Shown here: piece after piece, positions 9,083 to 30,905 of the stretch
How positions within the stretch are numbered: the stretch's first letter is position 1
How the letters are laid out: each line of letters opens with the position of its first letter
Source of the DNA: Oscillospiraceae bacterium
GTDB taxonomy: Bacteria; Bacillota; Clostridia; Saccharofermentanales; Saccharofermentanaceae
Reading direction: 5' to 3'
Assembly (NCBI GenBank): GCA_902801755.1
Contig: CADCJM010000036.1
Coordinates: 1-34,464, forward strand
DNA: 34,464 nucleotides
Translations under genes and position numbers: made by a program
Notes under the pieces: generated by a model
What the model saw: only the letters and a program-made list of their open reading frames with translations
Database searches by the model: none
Told to the model about the DNA's origin: nothing

Positions 9083-10432
9083 TCAATCTGTCTGAACTGA
9101 CATATTTCCGTCGTAGTTGCCCGCCGGATAGTTGAATTTAGGATCCCACAGGATGAATTCGGTTATTCCGGCGTCATGGATAGCCTTGATCTGGGAGTTG
9201 ATCTCCCTGTAGCCGTATTCCATGTAATTGCCCTTGCCGATATAAGATGCCGTGAATGCCTGTAAGTACGGCCTCATGGTCGTGAATCCCGGCTGGACAT
9301 ATATAGAACGGCATTCGTGCAGTACGCTGTAGACGATGAGATAAGGCTCCTTATCCGGTGTCTTGAAGACATGGCCTCCGAGCATCGTTCCCAAAGCATA
9401 GTGCGAAGGATATAACATCGGGCAGCAGGAATCGATCTCAGTCATGCCTAAAGTAGTGAAATCCTGACCGATAATGCCTGCATCAAGCGGAGACGTTAAT
9501 ACGATACCGAAGATATCTGCAGAGACGGGAATGCCGTGTGTGTCCTGGATCTTGATCCTTGCTTCCTGAAGGAATCTGTTTACGGCCTCAGCCTTTGTGG
9601 GAGTCTGGCCTTCTTCACCATAGTAAGGCTTTGCCTTGTTCTTGGTGGAGCCTGCGGGGAAACGGACGTAGTCGAACTGGATCTCATCGACGCCGTGCTC
9701 AACGCCCTCTAGTGCGATATCGATCAGATAATCCCAGTTCTCGGAATTATAAGGGCTTAAGAAGGGGTTGTTGCCTTCGTTGCTGAAACGTACAACATTG
9801 CCGGAAGCGTCGGTGATAGCTCTTTTAGGGAAGTGCTCAGCGGCCAGTGAATCGTTGAAGCAAACAACACGTCCGATAACTCTTACGCCGTTGTCGTGGC
9901 ACTTCTTGATTACCTTGTCGATGTCATAAGCATCCCATACATATCCGATCTCTCTGGCTGTCTCGTTCTTTGTCTTGAAGGGAATACCGTATTCCTGCTT
10001 GAGATTGATTACAACTGAATTCATCTCGCTGTTCTTGCAAAGCTCGATAGCCTTATCAAGATTGGAACAGGTTCCTATATAAAGGCCTTTTACTTCAAAG
10101 TGCTCAGGCTTCTTTACGTCTTCTTCCGCGATCTCCGGCAGCGGGCGCCAGTAGCTCTCGGCGAGTTCTGATGAGACTAACTGCTCTGTGTGATAGACGA
10201 TGGGATCAGTAACTGTTGTGCTCTCTGAACTGATAGTAACCAGAATAGGAAGATTGCCGGTCGTCTCGCCTGTGTTGACATGACTGATGATCTTGGTGAT
10301 GCCCAGTGTCACCAGAACGACAGCAAGGATCGCTGCCACGGAAAGCAGGATCGTAAGCAATCTTCTGAGTTTTGCCAGCTCAAGACTGTCCGGATTATTA
10401 TGGTTATTATTCAAATCATTATTATTTAACAT
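9083..10432 (-). CDS. Putative glycoside hydrolase, DUF4015 type, membrane anchored
   Basis: A protein of about 449 residues with an asparagine-rich cytoplasmic start, one membrane segment near residues 27-50 (LLTILLSVAAILAVVLVTLG), a linker and a C-terminal TIM-barrel-like domain. The barrel shows VKGLYIGTCSNLDKAIELC, VVINLKQEYGIPF, IGRVVCFND, GVDEIQFDYVRFP and FILWDPKFNY, which matches the DUF4015 family of putative extracellular carbohydrate-active proteins. FDYVRFP with its aspartate is the best candidate active-site strand. The substrate is unknown. I chose ATG 10432 over GTG 10477 because a sigma-A -10 lies six bases before it; no ribosome binding site is visible at either codon. Confidence 0.8.
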   Translation of the reverse strand: MLNNNDLNNNHNNPDSLELAKLRRLLTILLSVAAILAVVLVTLGITKIISHVNTGETTGNLPILVTISSESTTVTDPIVYHTEQLVSSELAESYWRPLPEIAEEDVKKPEHFEVKGLYIGTCSNLDKAIELCKNSEMNSVVINLKQEYGIPFKTKNETAREIGYVWDAYDIDKVIKKCHDNGVRVIGRVVCFNDSLAAEHFPKRAITDASGNVVRFSNEGNNPFLSPYNSENWDYLIDIALEGVEHGVDEIQFDYVRFPAGSTKNKAKPYYGEEGQTPTKAEAVNRFLQEARIKIQDTHGIPVSADIFGIVLTSPLDAGIIGQDFTTLGMTEIDSCCPMLYPSHYALGTMLGGHVFKTPDKEPYLIVYSVLHECRSIYVQPGFTTMRPYLQAFTASYIGKGNYMEYGYREINSQIKAIHDAGITEFILWDPKFNYPAGNYDGNMSVQTD

Positions 10433-10438
10433 AGGACA

Positions 10439-10467
10439 ATTATACAGACCTGCCTCAAAAAGAACAA
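10439..10467 (-). promoter_or_regulatory. Sigma-A promoter, possibly giving a leaderless message
   Basis: On the minus strand TTGTTC (10467-10462), a 17-base spacer and TATAAT (10444-10439). The -10 ends six bases before the ATG at 10432, so transcription would begin at about the start codon itself. Confidence 0.55.
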
Positions 10468-10542
10468 ATAACTCCACGCAAAGCCTGGTGACGTGTGATA
10501 AAATCGGGTTATAAACATTTGATTTATTAGGGTTGGCAGGAT

Positions 10543-15015: not shown

Positions 15016-17910
15016 ATGTGGGGAAAACCTAGTTCAATATTGAAAGAAAAACGAGGCACTTTCAGCCGTCTGAAAGCTAACTGGCCTCAGTTCCTTTTAG
15101 CATTCCTGTTTCCGACGCTTACAGTTCTTGCGGCTTTTGCGGTTACCGGATGCTTCCCGTTCGGCGAAAGAACGATCCTTACAGTTGACCTTTATCACCA
15201 GTATTGCCCTTTCCTCGTTGCTTTCAGAGACAAGGTCATGTCAGGTGAATCGCTCTTTTACAGCTGGAATGACGGTTTGGGACAGGAATACTACGCGGCT
15301 TATGCCAACTATGCGGCAAGCCCGCTTAATATATTCTCATTGTTCTTTACAGCTAAGACCATGCCGGTCTTCATCGAATTCGTCACATGCCTCCGCGCCG
15401 GCCTTGCTTCAGTATTCATGCTCCTTTTCTTATCTTCCAACGATAACAGAAGGATCGACAATATTACCGTAATATTCAGCTCATCTTATGCTCTTTGCGG
15501 CTGGTTCATCTCATTTTTCTGGAACATCATGTGGTGCGATGCCGTAGTAATGCTCCCGCTTATTGCTTTAGGACTCCGCAGTCTTCTTGTGGAACGCAGA
15601 TGTACTCTTTACATAATCACTCTTGCGATTTCTATCATCAGCAATTACTATGCGGGCTATTTCCTCTGCCTTTTCATGGTGCTCTTTGCACCTTCCTACT
15701 ATATCTGCCTCTTTTCACGCGAAAAGCCCAAGGGCGATCCCGGCAGGCTTTGCTTTAAGACATTTATCGGGGCAGCATTCCGTTTTGCAGTCTCGAGCAT
15801 TATTGCAGCAGGAGTATCGGCTGCACTGACTGTTCCCACATATCTGATCCTTAAGAACTGTTCTGCCACAGGCGACAAGCTTAAGGTCGATTACGCGCTG
15901 CAGAACAATCTTTTCGATTTCCTGGGAAGACTTATGGTATCTGCCAACCCGAATATCAGAGACGGCATGGCAAATGTATACAGCGGCATCGTAATAGCGC
16001 TCCTGCTGCCTTTGTTCTTCCTGCTCCCTAAAAGGACCGGTATCAAGTTAAAGCACAAGATCGTGTTCGGACTTCTTATTCTGATCATGTATCTGAGCTT
16101 TACAAACCGTACTCTCAACTTCATCTGGCACGGAATGCACTTCCCGAACCAGATCCCTTACAGAGAGTCATTTATAATGAGTTTTCTTCTTGTTTTTGTA
16201 GCATTCCTTACTATAAGAAGAATAAGGAGTCTCGGTGTTAAGTACATTACAGGTTCAGTGCTCAGCATGGCAGCCTTCCTTGTGCTTTACGAGAAGTTCG
16301 GCACAGGCAACGAGGGCTATCTTCAGATCGGCACTACCCTTTTATTCCTCATTATCCAGGGTGCAGCGCTTCATACTGTAAGCAATATCCACACCAAAAA
16401 GTCCGGTTTCTTCTGCGAGACCCTTCTTACTGTTACGATGATGGTCGAGATGTTTGCAGCTTCCCTTATCACCATAGGTGTTGTCTGCATGCATGAGGGA
16501 TTTACGAGCTACAAGCCTTACGGTAGAAATTATTCCGAGGTCCATGCTTATGCAGAGAAAACCGAGGGTTCCGAAGGGCACATGAACTTTGAGCGTTCAG
16601 AACTCTTCCCGAACAATATCTGCGATCTCCAGTCTCTTTATAACGTTAAGGGCCTTTCGATATTCTCTTCAACAGCAAGAGAGAGCTTCGTAAAGTACAC
16701 GAGGAACTACGGTTTCCATAACAACAATATCAACGGACTCAGAAATGCCGGCCTTACACGTGTTACGGCAACTCTTTTTAATGTCAGAAATCTCATCGAG
16801 ATTGACAAGACACAGGCAGTTCCCGATCTTTTCGAGAAGGAATATACAGACAACACCATTACTTCATGGGCTAACAAAGATGCCTTAAGCGTCGGTTTTA
16901 TGACCGGCACGGGAGTCATTGACTATGCTCCTGATTACGATAACGATCTTGATGTTTTCTCCAAGACCAACGAATGGGTCAAGAGCATGGGTGCCGGAGA
17001 TGTTTATAAACCGGTCGTCATGAATGTTGAAGGCACACCCGGATTTGCCTCTTCCGCCACACAGGGCAAGGTCTTGAATCTTACCTCCTCGAGCAATATG
17101 CAGAGCGATGAATACTCATTCAACGTAACGGTCGACAATGCTGATATCGGATCAGATGTTTACATTTATGCCAATTCCAAAAAGGGCGGAACAGTCAACA
17201 TCAAATGCGGTGATAAGACCAGAAGATTCGAGATAAGAAGCTACCAGATCATCACAGCGGGCGTCTTTGACGGAACACCCATTAATATCAATGTCAAGTA
17301 CTCCGAGAATCCCGGTTCGGCGCTTGTTGTTTACGGATACCAGCTCGACAGGACAGGATATGAACAGATGCTCGAAAAGTTCTCTGACGAGCAGCTCCAG
17401 GTGTCAGAATACGATGCCACATCCCTTTCCGGACATGTTGATGTCAGGGAAGACGGACTGCTGTTCCTCTCGATTCCCTATGCTGAAGGCTGGTCTGTGG
17501 AGATCGACGGCGAAAAGGGTGAGATCACTCCTGTCCAGGACGCTTTCATGGGCATAAAGCTCCAGAAGGGAAGCCACGATATTAAGCTTAAGTACACCCC
17601 GGCAGGCTTTAAGGCAGGCTGCATCATAAGCGTAGTCTCAATTGCGGTTATCGCTGCATATATCACGATCTCTTCTGTTGCAGGAAGAAAGAAAGCTTCA
17701 AATGCGCCTGCTGCAGAGACAATAGCGGAGGGAGCTCCTGCTGAAACTATCGAAGAAGTTCCCGTTCCTTATGTGGCTGAGGCGGGTGAGAATACTGAAG
17801 AAGACTTTGAAGACGCACTGACAGGCCTTCCTTCAGAAGATGGTGACAACCCCGTAAATGATGGCGGAGACGCTAATACCGAGAGCAAACCGGAGGCGGA
17901 TAATGAATAA
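15016..17910 (+). CDS. YfhO-family membrane protein
   Basis: A 964-residue polytopic membrane protein of the YfhO family, whose Gram-positive members are tied to glycosylation of cell-wall polymers. The N-terminal half has many membrane helices with the family signature LTVDLYHQYCPFLVAFRD and YSWNDGLGQEYYAAYANYA between helices 1 and 2. A large extracellular part with beta-rich segments runs from about residue 500 to 860 and ends in the VDIREDGLLFLSIPYAEGWSVEIDG-like stretch. A last helix (AGCIISVVSIAVIAAYITI) near 875-895 precedes an acidic, alanine- and glutamate-rich tail. The stop overlaps the ATG of the next gene, a shorter member of the same family, so the two are coupled. Confidence 0.88.
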   Translation: MWGKPSSILKEKRGTFSRLKANWPQFLLAFLFPTLTVLAAFAVTGCFPFGERTILTVDLYHQYCPFLVAFRDKVMSGESLFYSWNDGLGQEYYAAYANYAASPLNIFSLFFTAKTMPVFIEFVTCLRAGLASVFMLLFLSSNDNRRIDNITVIFSSSYALCGWFISFFWNIMWCDAVVMLPLIALGLRSLLVERRCTLYIITLAISIISNYYAGYFLCLFMVLFAPSYYICLFSREKPKGDPGRLCFKTFIGAAFRFAVSSIIAAGVSAALTVPTYLILKNCSATGDKLKVDYALQNNLFDFLGRLMVSANPNIRDGMANVYSGIVIALLLPLFFLLPKRTGIKLKHKIVFGLLILIMYLSFTNRTLNFIWHGMHFPNQIPYRESFIMSFLLVFVAFLTIRRIRSLGVKYITGSVLSMAAFLVLYEKFGTGNEGYLQIGTTLLFLIIQGAALHTVSNIHTKKSGFFCETLLTVTMMVEMFAASLITIGVVCMHEGFTSYKPYGRNYSEVHAYAEKTEGSEGHMNFERSELFPNNICDLQSLYNVKGLSIFSSTARESFVKYTRNYGFHNNNINGLRNAGLTRVTATLFNVRNLIEIDKTQAVPDLFEKEYTDNTITSWANKDALSVGFMTGTGVIDYAPDYDNDLDVFSKTNEWVKSMGAGDVYKPVVMNVEGTPGFASSATQGKVLNLTSSSNMQSDEYSFNVTVDNADIGSDVYIYANSKKGGTVNIKCGDKTRRFEIRSYQIITAGVFDGTPININVKYSENPGSALVVYGYQLDRTGYEQMLEKFSDEQLQVSEYDATSLSGHVDVREDGLLFLSIPYAEGWSVEIDGEKGEITPVQDAFMGIKLQKGSHDIKLKYTPAGFKAGCIISVVSIAVIAAYITISSVAGRKKASNAPAAETIAEGAPAETIEEVPVPYVAEAGENTEEDFEDALTGLPSEDGDNPVNDGGDANTESKPEADNE

Positions 17911-19150
17911 CACCAAAGGAAGACTTAAAGATTACCGGGGCGAACTGTTCTGCTTTCTGGCAGCTGTCCTGATAGCATTCATTGCTCTTAATGCCGGACG
18001 TTATATTGAGCCCGGAAAGATACTTCCGACCGGACTTTCGATGCGTTCGGACAAGCTCAACGAGAATATTCTGGGCGGTATCAATAATGCTTTGGATGAT
18101 ATCAGCCTTATCAGGAACGGAAGTGCAGACCAGAATCTCTGGAGGATGCTTACATTCATCCATCTGGATATTTTCTTCTATCTGGCTTTGCTGATCCCCC
18201 GGGCTGCCAAAACGGTCCTCATGGCAGGATACTATATAAAGTTCGGTCTTTGCTGCTCGGCAATGTATTACTTCCTTGCCAAGCACATTAAGATCTCTAA
18301 GCTTGCCGCATCTCTTCTGGCGGTCATGTTCGCATTCTCTTCGCATATCATATTCAATGCACAGTTTTCTGCGGTAATGAACATGGCAATCTTTATGCCG
18401 GTGCTTTTATCTTCAATAGATTCATATTATAAGACCAGATCATGGAAGTCTTTTGCCTTTATCTGGCTGGCATCATTTGCTGTCGGTGCATCCGGCGGTT
18501 ACGGACTTCTCACGGGAATACCTGCAGCGGTTTTTATCAGCTTATTAATGGCTGTTGGTCTTTATGAGAGCATGAAGATGGCGATTAACTCCTGGTTCAA
18601 GGTCCTCGGAGGATTTGTGGCAGGTGTTGTCACGACAGCCGCTTTTGCTTTGCCCGGTCTTATGTTGATGAAGGTTGACGTCAATATTGCCGAGAGCGTT
18701 AAGAATGCAAAAGTCTCATTTACTGTAATGGATCTTATAAGGGCAACGTTTATGCTCCGTTCCGGAAGCATCTCAACGGGTAATGTCACATCTTTTTATA
18801 TAGGTATCCTTACGATAGCTGCTTTAGTGGCATTCATTATTAATGAAGAGATACCGCTGAGGCTCAAAGTGACTGCTGCAGTCATGGTCTCTGTTTTCCA
18901 CATTGTCTGCTGCTCGACATTTGTAAACGAGACAGTCAGCATTTTCGGCACCTCGCCAATACTTACTTCTTCAAGACTTATCTGTCTTGAGATCCTGCTT
19001 TTCTTTATTGCAGGAATCGGTATTAAAAACATTACCGGTCTTGGAAGAGGCGGATTTATTGCAGTCTGTCTTATTCCTCTGGCATTCCTGATCCTTTCCA
19101 ACAACGCTTCTGCCGCCACTTCACTTTCGAGTGTTATTCAGCCATCTTGA
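17903..19150 (+). CDS. Second YfhO-like membrane protein, N-terminal part (frame break)
   Basis: This is the membrane half of a second, shorter YfhO-like protein. ATG 17903 follows GGAGGCGG at 17892-17899 and overlaps the preceding stop. About ten hydrophobic segments are visible, starting with LFCFLAAVLIAFIALNAG and ending with GFIAVCLIPLAFLILS. The family-typical loop after helix 1 is present but divergent (GRYIEPGKILPTGLSMRSDK). The frame is lost near 19134; adding one T to the TT at 19134-19135 continues as SSVYSAILIYGIAKDRL. The whole protein would then be about 748 residues. I infer the family from layout and tandem position more than from strong sequence motifs. Confidence 0.7.
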   Translation: MNNTKGRLKDYRGELFCFLAAVLIAFIALNAGRYIEPGKILPTGLSMRSDKLNENILGGINNALDDISLIRNGSADQNLWRMLTFIHLDIFFYLALLIPRAAKTVLMAGYYIKFGLCCSAMYYFLAKHIKISKLAASLLAVMFAFSSHIIFNAQFSAVMNMAIFMPVLLSSIDSYYKTRSWKSFAFIWLASFAVGASGGYGLLTGIPAAVFISLLMAVGLYESMKMAINSWFKVLGGFVAGVVTTAAFALPGLMLMKVDVNIAESVKNAKVSFTVMDLIRATFMLRSGSISTGNVTSFYIGILTIAALVAFIINEEIPLRLKVTAAVMVSVFHIVCCSTFVNETVSIFGTSPILTSSRLICLEILLFFIAGIGIKNITGLGRGGFIAVCLIPLAFLILSNNASAATSLSSVIQPS

Positions 19151-23482: not shown

Positions 23483-23522
23483 TACTGTTCTAACCTGACA
23501 GTGGTTTAATTCAAAAGTTAAA

Positions 23523-23558
23523 GGGGTTGCTCCAAAAGGAGCAACCCCTGTTATTTTG
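23523..23558 (+). terminator. Rho-independent terminator of the PilX-like gene
   Basis: A perfect 11-base stem (23523-23533 with 23538-23548) with an AAAA loop is followed by TGTTATTTT. On the minus strand it is followed by TTTAACTTTT, so it may also stop transcription of the convergent DsrE-like operon. Confidence 0.9.
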
Positions 23559-23595: not shown

Positions 23596-24042
23596 TTATT
23601 CCAGAACTAATAGATTTGGAAGATAAGTTATATCTTCAGCGATCGATCTGGCGGATTGTTCAACTATCTTGGAATTGCCGGAGTAAGATACTTCATAGTA
23701 TGAGATGCTTTCAGATGCAGCAATGATCATCTCCGACTTTTCGATCAGTCGGAGCATGCTTTCGTGAAGAGGATTTGATCCATCGAGAAGCCTGGTTCCT
23801 TTATCAGTCAGATATACGATTACTGAACTGAAAGATGATTCACTGAGGCTTGCAAGGAAACCGGCAAGGAGTTCGCGGCCGTGATCCGAGTCGGATGAAT
23901 AGAAATCATGCTTAATAAGCACATATTTTGTGGACGTCTCCTCATCAGTCTTTTCCTGCATTACCTCAAGCAGAGAAACATCTGACAGCTGTTCCAACTG
24001 CGCCCCCTGATAATCAAGACTGCTTCTTTGATTGCTGTTCAT
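23596..24042 (-). CDS. DsrE/YedF C-terminal-like protein
   Basis: A 148-residue protein counted from ATG 24042, which has GGGAGGG before it. After a variable start of about 35 residues the sequence resembles the DsrE-like domain of YedF: KYVLIKHDFYSSDSDHGREL, LAGFLASLSE, VIVYLTDKGTRLLDGSNPL, SMLRLIEKSEMIIAASESISYYEV. YedF proteins belong to sulfur or selenium handling, but here the usual cysteine pair of the CGTC-like loop reads AASES and the TusA-like first domain is absent. The role is therefore open. It overlaps the preceding DUF6062-like gene by 29 bases and is the last gene of the minus-strand operon. Confidence 0.6.
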   Translation of the reverse strand: MNSNQRSSLDYQGAQLEQLSDVSLLEVMQEKTDEETSTKYVLIKHDFYSSDSDHGRELLAGFLASLSESSFSSVIVYLTDKGTRLLDGSNPLHESMLRLIEKSEMIIAASESISYYEVSYSGNSKIVEQSARSIAEDITYLPNLLVLE

Positions 24043-24775
24043 CAAAATCCCTCCCGTCGGAAGATAAGAAACGCATGGAGCGCTGGATAGAATTCTTGCT
24101 GGTTCCCCATGGCTTGTCAGTATTCCTGTAATCGAATTTAAGTGTGAAATACTCGACGTCCGAGATAAGCGCATCAAAGGTGGCTGTGTTGTTGGCATAA
24201 AGAGCCTCAACAAAGTCAGCCGCATCGTTCTGCGAGAGTTTTGCAGCCTGCCTTAAAAGCAAAGCAGTGTGAGGCAGACAATGGAATTCAGCATTTATAA
24301 ACTTGTCTTTGAAGTCCTTGTCGTGCGAAAACATCCAGCAGATGACTTCAACATAGTGTCCCATAGCATCGTTAAGATTGTCACAAATCGGGCAGAGGCT
24401 GATCCTTTTCTCGAGAAGGTCAGCAACATTGTTGAGCTTCTGTTTGTAATCGGGATTTCTGCCTTTTAAAAGACCTGCTTTGGCCGGAATTGCGGACTGG
24501 AGCCTTGGATTCAGATCCTCATTGAAATCCTTAAGATGAGTATGCATAACAAGACCTAAGCCAAGTCTGTTGGTAACTGCTTTATTGAGTTTTCCCATGT
24601 GAACAGGGCAAAAGCCTGTCTTGTTGGTTATCTTACGGGTATCAGGCTCCATCAACGATGGCCCCAAATAATATTCGAGATAGTTATTCTCTGCTTTTTC
24701 GCGAAGCCTGCATATCGGGCAACCGCCGTGTTCGTTATATGCATCGTTGACGGGAATCATGTAGATCTTTTCCAT
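24014..24775 (-). CDS. DUF6062-like zinc-binding protein
   Basis: A 253-residue protein of the uncharacterised DUF6062 type found in Clostridia. Likely metal-binding pairs are GGCPICR near residue 18, GFCPVHMGKL near 55, LCPICDNL near 128 and HCLPHTALLLRQ near 166; their spacing suggests two zinc sites shared across an alpha-helical protein. The tail is polar and basic. ATG 24775 shares one base with the TAA of the upstream P-loop gene (TAATG), so the pair is translationally coupled. The function is unknown; the order yebC, P-loop/Asp23, this gene and the DsrE-like gene is the only clue. Confidence 0.7.
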   Translation of the reverse strand: MEKIYMIPVNDAYNEHGGCPICRLREKAENNYLEYYLGPSLMEPDTRKITNKTGFCPVHMGKLNKAVTNRLGLGLVMHTHLKDFNEDLNPRLQSAIPAKAGLLKGRNPDYKQKLNNVADLLEKRISLCPICDNLNDAMGHYVEVICWMFSHDKDFKDKFINAEFHCLPHTALLLRQAAKLSQNDAADFVEALYANNTATFDALISDVEYFTLKFDYRNTDKPWGTSKNSIQRSMRFLSSDGRDFDEQQSKKQS

Positions 24776-25851
24776 TAATTATCCTCCGGTGACAATGGTT
24801 TAGGTAAATGCATTAGACGGTTTGCTCTGACATTTACACCATTCATAGTTATAGAAGTGAATTCCTCGACAGCGTTTCCAACTTTCTGCTGGGCTGTCTC
24901 CAGAACTTTCTGGGCATCATAGCCATAGTAAAGTGCAAGATCAAGGCTGATCATAACGCCGAAAGTCTGCTTTTCGGTCTTAAACGAAGTAACTTCCGCA
25001 AACCCTGGCACGTCCCTTAATACTATCTTGATCAGATCGAGGATCGCTTCGTCTGAAATAGAATATGACCCAAGGGAAGAGAAGGTTGGTCTTACGACGG
25101 TCCTGTCAGAATCCGGAGCCAAAGGAGTAACACCCCGTTCACGGTCAAATCTCTGTCTGAGTTTGCTGAATGGATCAGAGAAATAGCCGGAGAACTCGTG
25201 CTTGATCTCCATGCTGGGGACAGGGATCGTATGCATACCTTCGGTAACGCGGGTGGTACGTGCCAGACGTCTTTCCTCCTCGGTGGAAACGTCTTCGATC
25301 CTGATAAGCATTGAAGGCTGGTTAAGCCAGAGGTTGTCACAGATCTTGCTGAGCATGGAATCTGATGTGCCCAGTATCATAAGAGCTCTGGGCATAGATT
25401 CGATCAGGGCGCGGCGCATCATAGAAGATCTTGTGGGATCTACAAATATGGCCTGCCTGACAAATTCCATCTTGGTCGGAGCCTTCTTGGCAGAAGTACC
25501 GGCAACGATGCGGCTTCCGTTGATCAGAAGTCCGTCATCGATGATGTAGTAGATGTTGTTGTCTCTGGCAACCTTTATCGCTCGGGTGCTTTTACCTGTA
25601 CCCGAAGCACCGACGAAAGCTATGACCGCGATGTTTGATAACACTTCGCGTGTCAATTGTTCGCTCGAAAGTATAAGCTCCGCATTACGTTCGAAGCTTT
25701 GTGCAGGGTCGGAATATGTATTCTGGTTAGCCGGATTAGACCTGTCGAATCTTTTAAGAGTTCCACGAAATTCAGACAACAAAGTCTTTCGCGCTGCGGG
25801 AGCGCTCTGCGCCTGAATCTGCTCTTGTTTTAATTCGTCATGGTTGTCCAA
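24775..25851 (-). CDS. P-loop ATPase-like protein with C-terminal Asp23 domain
   Basis: A 358-residue protein that appears to join two modules. Residues 75-260 hold a nucleotide-binding fold with Walker A GASGTGKST, the segment NNIYYIIDDGLLI and ALMILGTSDSMLSKI. Residues about 270-350 look like an Asp23/Gls24 (YloU-type) domain: SISDEAILDLIKIVLRDVPG, VMISLDLALYYGYDAQKV, VEEFTSITMNGVNVRANRL. The first about 70 residues are polar. The start is TTG 25851, with AAGGA eight bases before it that overlaps the yebC stop region; the gap to yebC is 11 bases. The substrate of the P-loop domain is unknown; a kinase or regulatory ATPase are both possible. Confidence 0.75.
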   Translation of the reverse strand: MDNHDELKQEQIQAQSAPAARKTLLSEFRGTLKRFDRSNPANQNTYSDPAQSFERNAELILSSEQLTREVLSNIAVIAFVGASGTGKSTRAIKVARDNNIYYIIDDGLLINGSRIVAGTSAKKAPTKMEFVRQAIFVDPTRSSMMRRALIESMPRALMILGTSDSMLSKICDNLWLNQPSMLIRIEDVSTEEERRLARTTRVTEGMHTIPVPSMEIKHEFSGYFSDPFSKLRQRFDRERGVTPLAPDSDRTVVRPTFSSLGSYSISDEAILDLIKIVLRDVPGFAEVTSFKTEKQTFGVMISLDLALYYGYDAQKVLETAQQKVGNAVEEFTSITMNGVNVRANRLMHLPKPLSPEDN

Positions 25852-25862
25852 TTCTAATGTCC

Positions 25863-26588
25863 TTAACCGTTCCAGTTATGGAAGACTTCCTGGATATCCT
25901 CGTTCTCATCCATCATATCAAGCATCTTCTCGAGCTGGGCAACCGCTTCGGGATCTGTAACCTCGGCAGTAGTAATTGCTACAGGACCGAGAGTTGAGTC
26001 TGCGATTACATAGTTCTTAGCTTCGAGAGCTTCACGGACCGCATAATAATCAGTTGTGGATGTTGAGATGATGTAGTATTCGTCATCTGAATCAAAATCA
26101 GAGGCACCGCAGTCAAGCGCATCGCCCATGACCTGATCCTCATCCTCATACTCTTCCTTGGAGATAAGGATCGTTCCCTTCTCGTTGAAGAGGAAGGAGA
26201 CGGAACCGTCAACTCCTAAATTGCCGCCGTTCTTGTCGAAGATGTGTCTGAGATCTGCAGCAGTACGGTTGCGGTTGTTGGTCAAAGTCTTGACCATGAT
26301 GGCAACGCCTGCAGGACCATAACCTTCGTATGTGATCTCTTCATAATCGTCACCTTCACCGGCTTCGGCAGCCTTCTTGATGGCGCGGTTTATATTGTCA
26401 TTAGGCATATTGGCAGCCTTTGCCTTAGCTACTACAACTTTAAGTCTTGAATTGCCATCAGGGTCAGGACCTCCGGCCTTAACTGCTACAGCTATCTCTT
26501 TGGCGATCTTTGTAAATACAGCTCCCTTAGCTGCATCTGATGCCTCTTTTTTTCTTCTGATGTTGCTCCACTTAGAATGACCTGACAT
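25863..26588 (-). CDS. yebC: YebC/PmpR family protein
   Basis: A 241-residue member of the YebC/TACO1 family, which has been described as DNA-binding regulators and, more recently, as factors that help ribosomes through difficult sequences such as proline runs. The start MSGHSKWSNIRRKKEASDAAKG is the family hallmark, followed by NINRAIKKAAEAGEG, EITYEGYGPAGVAIMV and DLRHIFDKNGGNLG. ATG 26588 is preferred over the ATG two codons upstream because GGAGGA lies six bases before it and the family begins MSGHSKW. It is the first gene of the minus-strand operon and has a clear promoter. Confidence 0.96.
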   Translation of the reverse strand: MSGHSKWSNIRRKKEASDAAKGAVFTKIAKEIAVAVKAGGPDPDGNSRLKVVVAKAKAANMPNDNINRAIKKAAEAGEGDDYEEITYEGYGPAGVAIMVKTLTNNRNRTAADLRHIFDKNGGNLGVDGSVSFLFNEKGTILISKEEYEDEDQVMGDALDCGASDFDSDDEYYIISTSTTDYYAVREALEAKNYVIADSTLGPVAITTAEVTDPEAVAQLEKMLDMMDENEDIQEVFHNWNG

Positions 26589-26628: not shown

Positions 26629-26657
26629 ATTATACAATCTTTTTATGCATATACCAA
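26629..26657 (-). promoter_or_regulatory. Sigma-A promoter of the yebC operon
   Basis: On the minus strand TTGGTA (26657-26652), a 17-base spacer and a perfect TATAAT (26634-26629), 40 bases before the yebC start. Confidence 0.8.
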
Positions 26658-26856: not shown

Positions 26857-28521
26857 ATGAAGAGATTAGGTGATATTCTGGTCGAGAGCGGATTCTTAAA
26901 TGCTACCGAACTTGCAGAAGTACTTAGTATTCAGAAGGAAACCGGCAAACGTCTTGGTGAAGTTATCGTTGAGAGCGGTTTGATGTCGGAATTCGACATT
27001 TTGAGGGCGGTTTCCAGTCAGTATAATTATCCGATCATTGACCTGTCAGGTATTGATGTGGATCCCAAGGCAACAGCTCTTTTGACACAGAAGTTCTGTG
27101 AAGAGAACGTTGTATTCCCGATTGGCTTTGATGGTGACACGCTTGTAGTTGCTATCGATGACCCGATGAATATTACAATTGAAGATGAGCTTCAGTTCCA
27201 GACCGGATACCAGATATCCCTGATGCTCGCTACACACACTTCAATTATTGATGCAATTAAAGTCCATTACGGAAGAGAGAACGCCAACAAGGCTGCTGAA
27301 GAGCTCGGTACGAGCCTTGCAAATGACAGCCTTGATGATGATAACGAACTTTCCGAAGCAGTTAACAGTGCCCCGGTAGTTAAGCTCGTTAACTCAATGA
27401 TTGAATATGCTATCCGTTCAGGCTCATCCGATATCCATATCGAACCTCTCGAAGACCGAGTCAGAGTTCGTATCAGAATCGACGGTGTCATGCAGGAAGT
27501 AATGAGCAACCCTATTTCCGCAAAAGACGCTATCACAACAAGAATCAAGATCCTTGGCGGTATGAACATCGCCGAGAAGCGTATTCCTCAGGACGGCCGT
27601 ATTACGACAGTTATCAACGGTGAGGACGTGGACATGCGTGTATCCATCCTTCCCTGCGTTACAGGTGAGAAGACCGTTATCCGTATCCTTGCCAAGAATG
27701 ACGCTAACTTAAACAGAAAGTATCTTGGTATCAGCGATCGTAACAATGAGATGATCGACAAGATGATCAAGATCCCTCAGGGAATCGTCCTTATCTCAGG
27801 ACCTACAGGTTCAGGTAAGACAACGACCCTTTATACACTCCTTTCAGAGAAGAACACGGATGAAGTTAATATCATCACAGTTGAGGACCCTGTAGAAATC
27901 AGGATCCCTGGATTGAATCAGGTACAGGTTAATGCAAAGGCCGGAATGACATTCGCAAGCGGCCTCAGATCCATCCTCCGTCAGGACCCTGATATCATCC
28001 TCGTCGGTGAGATCCGTGACGGTGAGACTGCTGAGATCGCTATGAGAGCTGCTATCACCGGACACCTTGTATTCAGTACTATCCACACGAACGATGCGGT
28101 ATCTTCCATCAACCGTCTTATCGACATGGGCCTCGAGCCTTACATGGTATCGTCGGCATTGGTTGGTGTTGTATCCCAGCGTCTTGTTCGCCGTATCTGC
28201 ACTAACTGCAGAGAATCCTATGAACCTGAAGCTTACGACAGAGAGTACTTAAGACTCGATCCGGGCCAGAAGCTCTATCGTGGTAAGGGTTGTACAGAAT
28301 GTAATGAAAAGGGATACAAGGGACGTATTGCTATCCATGAGATCGTAATCGTTACCATGAAGATGAAGGCTTTGCTTGAGAAGAGAGCAAGCGAAGACGA
28401 GATGCGCGCACTCGCTGTCACTGAAGGCACACAGATGCTTCAGGATTCCGCAAGAGACCTCGTACTTGAAGGTATTACGACGGTCAGCGAGCTCAACAGA
28501 GTAGCTTACACGATTGACTGA
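26857..28521 (+). CDS. pilB: Type IV pilus extension ATPase PilB
   Basis: A 554-residue GspE/PilB-type hexameric ATPase that powers pilus assembly from the cytoplasmic face. Residues 1-150 form the MshEN-like N-terminal domain (GDILVESGFLNATELAEVL, GEVIVESGLMSEFDIL). The ATPase core shows Walker A GPTGSGKTTTLYT, the Asp box VEDPVEIRIPG, Walker B ILVGEIRDGETAEIA and the His box HLVFSTIHTNDA. Two CxxC pairs (CTNCRESY and CTECNEKGYKG) form the zinc-binding unit typical of PilB. GGGAGGG precedes the ATG. The gene opens the cluster pilB, pilT, pilC, pilM, pilN, pilO, with a 17-base gap to pilT. Confidence 0.96.
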   Translation: MKRLGDILVESGFLNATELAEVLSIQKETGKRLGEVIVESGLMSEFDILRAVSSQYNYPIIDLSGIDVDPKATALLTQKFCEENVVFPIGFDGDTLVVAIDDPMNITIEDELQFQTGYQISLMLATHTSIIDAIKVHYGRENANKAAEELGTSLANDSLDDDNELSEAVNSAPVVKLVNSMIEYAIRSGSSDIHIEPLEDRVRVRIRIDGVMQEVMSNPISAKDAITTRIKILGGMNIAEKRIPQDGRITTVINGEDVDMRVSILPCVTGEKTVIRILAKNDANLNRKYLGISDRNNEMIDKMIKIPQGIVLISGPTGSGKTTTLYTLLSEKNTDEVNIITVEDPVEIRIPGLNQVQVNAKAGMTFASGLRSILRQDPDIILVGEIRDGETAEIAMRAAITGHLVFSTIHTNDAVSSINRLIDMGLEPYMVSSALVGVVSQRLVRRICTNCRESYEPEAYDREYLRLDPGQKLYRGKGCTECNEKGYKGRIAIHEIVIVTMKMKALLEKRASEDEMRALAVTEGTQMLQDSARDLVLEGITTVSELNRVAYTID

Positions 28522-28538
28522 TAAGGAGGTTTTTTAAC

Positions 28539-29651
28539 GTGGAAGGATTTAGTTTATCGATCGAATCGATTTTGGCTGAATCGGTAAAGATGGGAGCATC
28601 CGATACCCATATTACAGTCGGATTGCCGCCTATGATTCGTGTTGACGGTATGTTGATGCCGTTAGGTAATCAGCCGCTTACAGCTGCAGATACTGAGTAT
28701 CTTTGCAAGTCAATGATCGACAAATCAAGACAGCAGTATCTGAATGAGAGAGGTGAGATCGACTTCTCTTACATTGTTGAGAACTTCAGCCGTTTCAGAT
28801 GTAACGTATTCAAGCAGCGTGGTACTTATGCACTTGCTGCAAGAACGATTACAAATGAGATCCCTACATGTGAGCAGCTGGGTCTCCCTAATATCTTCAA
28901 GGAACTGGTTATGAGACCTAGAGGACTTATCCTTGTTACAGGTCCTACGGGTTCCGGTAAGTCAACAACACTGGCAGCTATGATCGGCCATGTTAACATG
29001 AGCAAGAAGTGCCACATCTTAACTCTTGAGGAACCTATCGAGTATCTCCATATGCACGGAGAAGCTATGATCAACCAGAGAGAGATTCACGAGGATACAC
29101 TTTCATTCGCTAACGCTCTTAGAGCTGCTCTCCGTGAGGACCCGGATATAATCCTCGTAGGAGAAATGCGTGACCTCGATACAATTTCCACTGCTATTAC
29201 CGCAGCCGAGACAGGACACCTCGTTCTTTCAACACTCCATACGTCTTCAGCTGCTGATACAGTTAACCGTATCATCGACGTTTACCCGCCGCATCAGCAG
29301 GATCAGATCAGAGTTCAGCTCGCTACATGTCTTGTTGCCGTTATCTGTCAGACACTCGTACAGAGAATCGGCGGAGGCAGATGTGCTGCTTTCGAGATCA
29401 TGATCTCAAACGATGCTATTAAGAACAATATCCGTGAAGGTAAGACATACCAGATCGACTCTACGATCGCTACGAGCCTTCAGCAGGGTATGTGCCCTCT
29501 CGATTTCTATCTTGCAGAGCTTGTTAAGCGTAATATGATCACAAGAGATACTGCTCTCCAGAGATGCAGAATCCCTGAGGATCTTAAGCGTTTCATCAAT
29601 AACGCAGGTCAGACGAACAGCCCGTTGTTCGGTGATCTCGAGTTCGCCTGA
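28539..29651 (+). CDS. pilT: Type IV pilus retraction ATPase PilT
   Basis: A 370-residue PilT-type ATPase that drives pilus retraction and twitching. It starts with GTG at 28539 after a strong AAGGAGG. The N-terminal PAS-like part (GASDTHITVGLPPMIRVDG) is followed by Walker A GPTGSGKSTTLA, the Asp box LEEPIEYLH, Walker B ILVGEMRDLDTISTA and the His box HLVLSTLHTSSAADTVNR. The end of the core reads DQIRVQLATCLVAVICQTLVQ. Unlike PilB it lacks the MshEN domain and the cysteine pairs, which separates the two. Having both ATPases argues for a dynamic, retractable pilus rather than a competence pseudopilus. Confidence 0.95.
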   Translation: MEGFSLSIESILAESVKMGASDTHITVGLPPMIRVDGMLMPLGNQPLTAADTEYLCKSMIDKSRQQYLNERGEIDFSYIVENFSRFRCNVFKQRGTYALAARTITNEIPTCEQLGLPNIFKELVMRPRGLILVTGPTGSGKSTTLAAMIGHVNMSKKCHILTLEEPIEYLHMHGEAMINQREIHEDTLSFANALRAALREDPDIILVGEMRDLDTISTAITAAETGHLVLSTLHTSSAADTVNRIIDVYPPHQQDQIRVQLATCLVAVICQTLVQRIGGGRCAAFEIMISNDAIKNNIREGKTYQIDSTIATSLQQGMCPLDFYLAELVKRNMITRDTALQRCRIPEDLKRFINNAGQTNSPLFGDLEFA

Positions 29652-29696
29652 TAAAGGCACAAATAAAGAATTCTGATAAGAGGAGGGTTATATTAG

Positions 29697-30905
29697 ATGG
29701 CTAATTTCAGATATCAAGTTATCGATGCAAACGGTAAAATGTCTGAAGGCATAGTCGAAGCTACTTCTATTGGAGAAGCATCAAGAAAGCTCAAATCCGA
29801 TGGCAAATACATTGCCAGCTTATCCTTAGACAAGGGTAAGGGCATTATGAACATGGAGGTCGGAAGCCCTAAGCTTAAGACCCAGGATCTTGTTATCATC
29901 TCCAGACAGCTTGCTTCACTTTTGTCTGCAGGTATTACCGTTGTAAGATCACTCGATATGCTTTATCAGCAGCTTGAATCCAAGAAGGCTAAGAAGTGTG
30001 TCGGTGAAATCTATGAATCTGTTCAGAGTGGTCGTTCCCTTTCTGAAGCATTTAAGGAACAGAGGGGCGTTATTCCGAACATCATGATCAGTATGATCGC
30101 AGCAGGAGAAGAATCCGGACGTCTCGATGAGGTTATGGAAAGACTTGCTGAGCACTTCGCTAAGGAAGCTAAGCTCAAGAACAAGATCTCTTCTGCGATG
30201 GTATATCCTAAGATCCTTGCAGGTCTTACAGCAGCCGTAAGTATCGGTTTGCTTACATTCCTTGTCCCTAAGATCGGTGATACGATCAAGGACCTCGGCG
30301 GTGAATTGCCGAAATTGACAAAGGCTTTGCTTAGTATTTCCCATTCACTCACTCATTTCTGGTACATTTATCTCGCAGGTTTAGGCCTTATCATTTACGG
30401 CTTCACGCTTTGGAAGAACTCCGAGAAGGGTTCAGAGACCTGGTCCAAGATCATGCTCAAGATGCCTGTAGTCGGAAAAGCAACTCGAATGAATGCTTCA
30501 GCCAGATTTACCAGAACAGTATCCACGCTTCTTAAGTCAGGTATCTCTGTACTCCAGGCTGTTGAGATCACAGAGAAATCACTTGACAACGTTATACTTC
30601 AGAAGAAGCTTGCTCAGGCTCGTATCGAGATCAGAAAGGGTACATCTCTTTCAAGATCTATCAGAGATATCACTGAGTTTCCTCCGATGATCTATGCAAT
30701 GGTTTCCATCGGTGAGGAATCAGGTACTTTGGATACGATTTTGCAGAAAGCTGCTGACTACTTTGAAGATGAGGCTGACGCAGCTACAGCAAAGATGGTT
30801 TCCGCTTTGGAGCCTGTCATGATCATCATCATGGCTATCATCGTCGGTGTAGTTGTAGGCGGTATCGCAATGCCTATCTTCACAATGGCTCAGTGGATTA
30901 TCTAA
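29697..30905 (+). CDS. pilC: Type IV pilus inner-membrane platform protein PilC
   Basis: A 402-residue GspF/PilC-type membrane protein that couples the ATPases to pilin addition and removal. It starts FRYQVIDANGKMSEG, as is usual for the family. Two cytoplasmic helical domains of the T2SSF kind are present: one starts SRQLASLLSAGITVVRSLDML and the second NASARFTRTVSTLLKSGISV. Membrane segments are near residues 170-190 (YPKILAGLTAAVSIGLLTFL), 222-240 (WYIYLAGLGLIIYGFTLW) and 372-395 (VMIIIMAIIVGVVVGGIAMP). AGAGGAGG precedes the ATG. The gap from pilT is 45 bases. Confidence 0.95.
   Translation: MANFRYQVIDANGKMSEGIVEATSIGEASRKLKSDGKYIASLSLDKGKGIMNMEVGSPKLKTQDLVIISRQLASLLSAGITVVRSLDMLYQQLESKKAKKCVGEIYESVQSGRSLSEAFKEQRGVIPNIMISMIAAGEESGRLDEVMERLAEHFAKEAKLKNKISSAMVYPKILAGLTAAVSIGLLTFLVPKIGDTIKDLGGELPKLTKALLSISHSLTHFWYIYLAGLGLIIYGFTLWKNSEKGSETWSKIMLKMPVVGKATRMNASARFTRTVSTLLKSGISVLQAVEITEKSLDNVILQKKLAQARIEIRKGTSLSRSIRDITEFPPMIYAMVSIGEESGTLDTILQKAADYFEDEADAATAKMVSALEPVMIIIMAIIVGVVVGGIAMPIFTMAQWII

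Follow-up and report, generated by a model that had tools for sequence, protein, structure and literature searches.

Gene content and organization of the locus

The window, a 34,464-nt stretch of DNA from an Oscillospiraceae bacterium of the order Saccharofermentanales (contig CADCJM010000036.1), contains four closely packed genes encoding a YebC/TACO1 family protein, a fusion of a P-loop domain with an Asp23 domain (hereafter the fusion), a DUF6062 protein and a DsrE/YedF-C-like protein (Table 1). The fusion gene uses TTG as its start codon and is separated from yebC by 11 bases, the fusion and DUF6062 genes overlap by 1 base (TAATG), and the DUF6062 and DsrE-like genes overlap by 29 bases. 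The open reading frames, the gap and the overlaps given in the initial annotation agree with these coordinates. Shine-Dalgarno-like sites precede all four genes: yebC and DUF6062 have GGAGG, the fusion has AAGGA and the DsrE-like gene has GGGAGG. The predicted promoter, which ends about 40 bases 5' of the yebC ATG, is the sole site in the region with 10 of 12 consensus matches, and corresponds to the strong promoter initially placed before yebC. Other terminator-like matches within the operon are weak, in keeping with the earlier statement that no terminator lies inside it. A 12-bp hairpin is common to the 3' end of the operon and the convergent plus-strand gene, and could serve as a terminator for both.

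Table 1. Positions of the operon genes, their main protein features and the flanking signals in the window.
Feature	Position	Strand	Basis
yebC (YebC/TACO1 family)	26588-25863	-	Pfam PF01709 and PF20772; NCBIfam PRK00110 and TIGR01033, above cut-off
P-loop/Asp23 fusion gene, 358 aa	25851-24775	-	Pfam Asp23 above cut-off; conservation in 59 members; AlphaFold2 model
Fusion, Walker A GASGTGKS	residues 81-88
Fusion, invariant IDD	residues 104-106
Fusion, Asp23 domain	residues ~264-350
DUF6062 gene, 253 aa	24775-24014	-	Pfam PF19538, 8.6e-78
DUF6062, CxxC...CxxH units	C19 C22 C56 H59; C128 C131 C166 H169
DsrE/YedF-C-like gene, 148 aa, Cys-free	24042-23596	-	TIGR03527 8e-6, below cut-off; alignment of relatives
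Promoter-like site TTGGTA-17-TATAAT before yebC	26657..26629	-	10/12 consensus matches, best in the region
Terminator-like hairpin, 12 bp, bidirectional	23522-23549	both	

The names initially given to yebC, Asp23 and DUF6062 are confirmed by Pfam, while the similarity of the last protein to the YedF model is weak and partial (25.8 bits to TIGR03527, whose cut-off is 110). None of the four operon proteins matches PADLOC anti-phage defence models at an E value of 0.01, and a reading of the operon as a defence system was set aside for lack of such a match.

Other genes were also predicted from the window. A DUF4015 putative glycosyl hydrolase is encoded at 9083-10477. DUF4015 genes also lie two genes upstream of yebC at another locus (L037), and the cluster recurs at two more (L044 and L048). 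A long and a short membrane protein of the YfhO type are encoded next to each other at 15016-19150. At 26857-30905, and divergent from the operon, lies a cluster that resembles type II secretion/type IV pilus genes (T2SSE ATPase, T2SSF).

The P-loop/Asp23 fusion protein

Among 59 diverse members of the fusion family, the Walker A motif (G81..G86 K87 S88) is conserved at 95-100%, and IDDG, AGxSAK, LGTS..M, R...G.H.IPVP..E.K..FSG and RPTxS..G are shared ahead of the Asp23 domain. Besides the near-invariant Walker A, the invariant motifs are IDD, SAK, GTS and RPxxS. The invariant D105 and D106 are candidate catalytic acids. Strand 156-161 ends in GTS, not in Asp, and a classical Walker B was not recognized in the 59-member alignment or in the model. 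Judging by these motifs, we infer that the fusion binds or hydrolyses ATP. With its Walker A removed, the P-loop domain gave no convincing match by sequence in the PDB and Pfam.

The Asp23 domain (PF03780) scores 32 bits (E 1.8e-7), above its cut-off of 28, and was matched in all 21 members scanned (E 0.1 or better). In the AlphaFold2 model, the P-loop core and the Asp23 domain are fairly confident (block pLDDT mostly above 82), while the pTM of 0.48 leaves the arrangement of the two domains uncertain. The Foldseek and VIA matches of the fusion fell on the Asp23 part, so they describe that domain and not the P-loop fold. The Asp23 part of the model is similar to the cytoplasmic domain that serves as a dimer domain in cation-efflux proteins (MamM, Z 11.6, rmsd 1.7 over 77 residues). 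The resemblance of the model suggests a previously unremarked fold relation between Asp23 and the regulatory domains of metal transporters.

The Asp23/Gls24 (DUF322) family includes Asp23 of S. aureus and YqhY and YloU of B. subtilis, and the roles known for its members concern the envelope or lipid synthesis (PMC5437119). The fusion shares their C-terminal domain above the Pfam cut-off, but its Asp23 domain does not stand alone, since it is fused to a P-loop domain that known Asp23/Gls24 proteins do not have. No tie of the fusion to envelope or acetyl-CoA carboxylase genes was seen here.

The DUF6062, YebC and DsrE-like proteins

The DUF6062 protein is a full-length member of PF19538 (261.5 bits against a cut-off of 27), a family without known function, on which our literature search found no paper. 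Comparison by hhalign shows that the two halves of the protein are homologous (probability 95%; score 46.9, while 200 column shuffles reached 29.0 at most). One CxxC...CxxH set lies in each half, and both sets are complete in 19 of 20 sequences, the ligands in the window being CCCHCCCH. By this profile comparison, which is our own addition to the description of the family, DUF6062 consists of an internally duplicated CxxC...CxxH unit, and two putative zinc sites are the obvious reading. The DUF6062 model is all-helical with a mean pLDDT of 76, from a shallow alignment of just 5 sequences, and with that alignment it showed no convincing relative among solved folds. Clostridia vary in this protein: in some it is short and divergent (about 205-240 aa), and in some it is present twice.

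DUF6062 was also detected in viral sequences. Two viral contigs with nearly identical surroundings (L127 and L128) have a DUF6062 match with a serine-recombinase-like ORF a few kb away, and this DUF6062 is probably host flank at a prophage end. Three unannotated human faecal phage records carry DUF6062 with 30-34% identity.

YebC of the window is a full-length member of the YebC/TACO1 translation factors (Pfam match 3e-54, with both Pfam domains and the NCBIfam equivalog over their cut-offs), and nothing notable sets it apart. YebC proteins are polyproline translation factors that relieve polyproline stalling (PMC11990639, PMC12234827).

Within the genus, identity to the DsrE-like protein of the window ranges from 27 to 60% (median 46%), against medians of 88% for YebC, 84% for the fusion and 76% for DUF6062. 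These identities show that the DsrE-like gene is changing far more rapidly than the other three. The protein of the window contains no Cys; many of the more remote relatives retain the Cys of a C.ESL motif, which has been lost in the clade of the window and is missing from many close relatives. Because the Cys is absent from this protein and many close relatives, sulfur-carrier chemistry of the kind seen in YedF/DsrE-like sulfur-relay proteins is unlikely.

Distribution of the fusion

The fusion is single-copy in the genome of the window and was detected in 55 of 58 genomes of its family, 140 of 148 genomes of its order and, after removal of two bare Asp23 matches, 107 of 196 genomes of the class. 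It is single-copy in most genomes of the order and in about half of those of the class. A profile search of the phylum sample retrieved it at full length in about 68 of 149 genomes, by our own count of matches above 200 bits, and most other genomes there match only via stand-alone Asp23 proteins. Carriers include Halanaerobium kushneri, a Negativicutes MAG and a Treponema MAG. One further candidate, a 663-aa ORF at L117, was judged to be a spurious 5' extension. The viral contigs searched contain no relative of the fusion, and a phage origin was rejected accordingly.

The only annotated record found is a Monoglobus pectinilyticus plasmid record (NZ_OY725741), in which a protein of the same family (40% identity across 78% of the window protein) is labelled 'Asp23/Gls24 family envelope stress response protein', an annotation by its Asp23 part only, and has rex adjacent to it. 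No paper on the P-loop/Asp23 fusion was found in the literature. The initial annotation regarded the fusion as unusual; its wide occurrence in the order and class rules out that it is rare, and it forms a common single-copy family there and in the phylum sample.

Gene neighbourhood of the fusion

A survey of the order covered 56 loci from 55 genomes (one genome was entered twice), of which 36 are from the genus of the window, and hence not independent, and 20 were picked to span four families. yebC lies immediately upstream of the fusion at all 56 loci. DUF6062 directly follows the fusion at 46 loci and is 1.1 kb away at another; it was not found at the loci of one family (f2). The DsrE-like gene follows at 44 loci. 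The recurrence of the four-gene order at 44 of 56 loci is not expected by chance, and the four genes are a genuine operon. No DsrE-like gene was seen outside this order, and all four genes were seen together only in part of it. The neighbourhood survey proposed in the initial annotation recovered the complete set at most of the loci compared in the order and at none of those compared outside it.

In other orders, 40 loci were compared, about eight of which were picked for an adjacent DUF6062, so that the counts do not come from an unbiased random sample. Only one lineage among them has yebC adjoining the fusion (L081, family f16). The commonest neighbour is an OGG-type 8-oxoguanine glycosylase gene, within 3 kb at about 25 of the 40 loci, followed by Rex (12), GroES and GroEL (8) and YtxC (7); IMPDH is also found there. 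The OGG gene at times overlaps the fusion by 11-26 bases (among L072-L111; for example, L073, L084, L085 and L093). An OGG query gave no match in the genome of the window, which is 89% complete, in a search that had no positive control. No envelope or lipid gene stood out among the recurrent neighbours.

DUF6062 is the widest partner gene of the fusion. Among 196 genomes of the class, 72 carry both genes and 59 carry neither, whereas DUF6062 occurs alone in 30 and the fusion alone in 35 (odds ratio 4.0, p 4e-6, a p value that is too small because the genomes are related). When the genomes were collapsed by hand to about 69 families, the odds ratio was 3.3 (p 0.03), and 3.9 (p 0.008) with weak DUF6062 matches dropped. 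The two genes are at most 1 kb apart in 22 of the 72 genomes that hold both. Five of these close pairs are in the family of the window and 17 in eight families outside the order, where three arrangements occur (fusion followed by DUF6062, DUF6062 followed by the fusion, and convergent). Against a pairing, the genes are not adjacent or are distant in the other 50 genomes, many of them split over contigs, and 65 class genomes carry just one of the two. Adjacency that is kept despite changed gene order is the strongest sign that the fusion and DUF6062 are a working pair.

Possible roles of the module

We tentatively favour, at slightly under even confidence, a housekeeping operon in which a P-loop/Asp23 switch or assembly protein and the zinc protein DUF6062 are placed behind yebC. 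The fusion would be a cytosolic nucleotide-binding switch acting through its P-loop domain, would assemble via its C-terminal Asp23 domain, and would work with DUF6062, which is predicted to be helical and to have two CCCH sites of the zinc type. This pair sits behind yebC in the order of the window and would be co-transcribed with it, and the fast-evolving Cys-less DsrE-like protein would have been added at the operon end. Assembly through Asp23, zinc binding and a physical partnership of the fusion with DUF6062 may all be part of this scheme, and its role would presumably lie in housekeeping or in coping with stress.

A serious rival is that the genes are merely co-transcribed without a shared function, as unrelated housekeeping genes under one promoter, with the pairing elsewhere reflecting inherited rex-ogg-groESL synteny. 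This is possible, if somewhat doubtful. Outside the order, the fusion lies amid Rex, OGG, GroES/GroEL and IMPDH genes, a mixed housekeeping block, and yebC and the DsrE-like gene are only local partners. However, the fusion and DUF6062 tend toward the same genomes, and they stay adjacent while order and orientation vary by family, which is unexpected under simple inherited synteny. An unlikely alternative makes the fusion an HprK/PEPCK-like kinase of a protein or metabolite, regulated by Asp23, with DUF6062 as partner or substrate. By eye, its GxSGTGKS...IDDG...hairpin...AGxSAK segment, in which Asp-Asp and a predicted hairpin come after Walker A, resembles GLSGTGKT...GDDEHGW...EGGCYAK of ATP-type PEPCK (PF01293) and GESGVGKS...ADDAVEI...VG of HPr kinase (PF07475). 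The model has short strands after Asp-Asp, as a hairpin would give, and 3 of 21 members match the PEPCK model weakly. But the fusion has no Pfam match to either family, profile comparison with PEPCK recovers Walker A only, and the HprK profile, from a set that held wrong ORFs, aligns over the Walker A to Asp-Asp stretch only (35% probability). Nothing aligns in hhalign once Walker A is removed, homology was not recovered by profile past that stretch, and a normal HprK is present in the genome of the window and most relatives. Equally improbable is a bolder reading, a new class of P-loop kinase or switch that would be widespread in anaerobic Firmicutes, controlled by Asp23, acting via a redox-labile double-zinc DUF6062, and associated through gene position with Rex and 8-oxoguanine repair.

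The initial annotation supposed that the four proteins act in one process, perhaps linking translation or envelope state to an ATPase. The first part gains support for the fusion and DUF6062, paired in nine families; the link to yebC, and with it to translation, is confined to the order plus one lineage. Nothing found here beyond the Asp23 name points to the envelope. A translation-linked module, with the fusion and DUF6062 acting with YebC on stalled ribosomes, draws on the constant position of yebC in the order and the relief of polyproline stalling by YebC (PMC11990639, PMC12234827). A BipA gene near the fusion (L126) and an RF3 gene near yebC (L038) also agree with it. It is nevertheless very improbable: the fusion is apart from yebC in nearly all other sampled lineages, and yebC is widespread in bacteria that lack the fusion. 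The most likely reading is a switch or assembly protein that depends on ATP, has a housekeeping role and works with a zinc protein, and this is favoured over an envelope-translation system. The locus had also been named the best candidate in the window for an undescribed system; its core is common across Clostridia and is better described as a good unknown than as a new kind of system.

The fusion occurs as a single-copy gene in about half of the sampled Clostridia, with no paper found on it and a P-loop domain that matches no family model past Walker A. Its partner, reduced to a double CCCH unit, would offer a direct first test of function. The label 'envelope stress response protein' can conceal a predicted nucleotide-binding protein.
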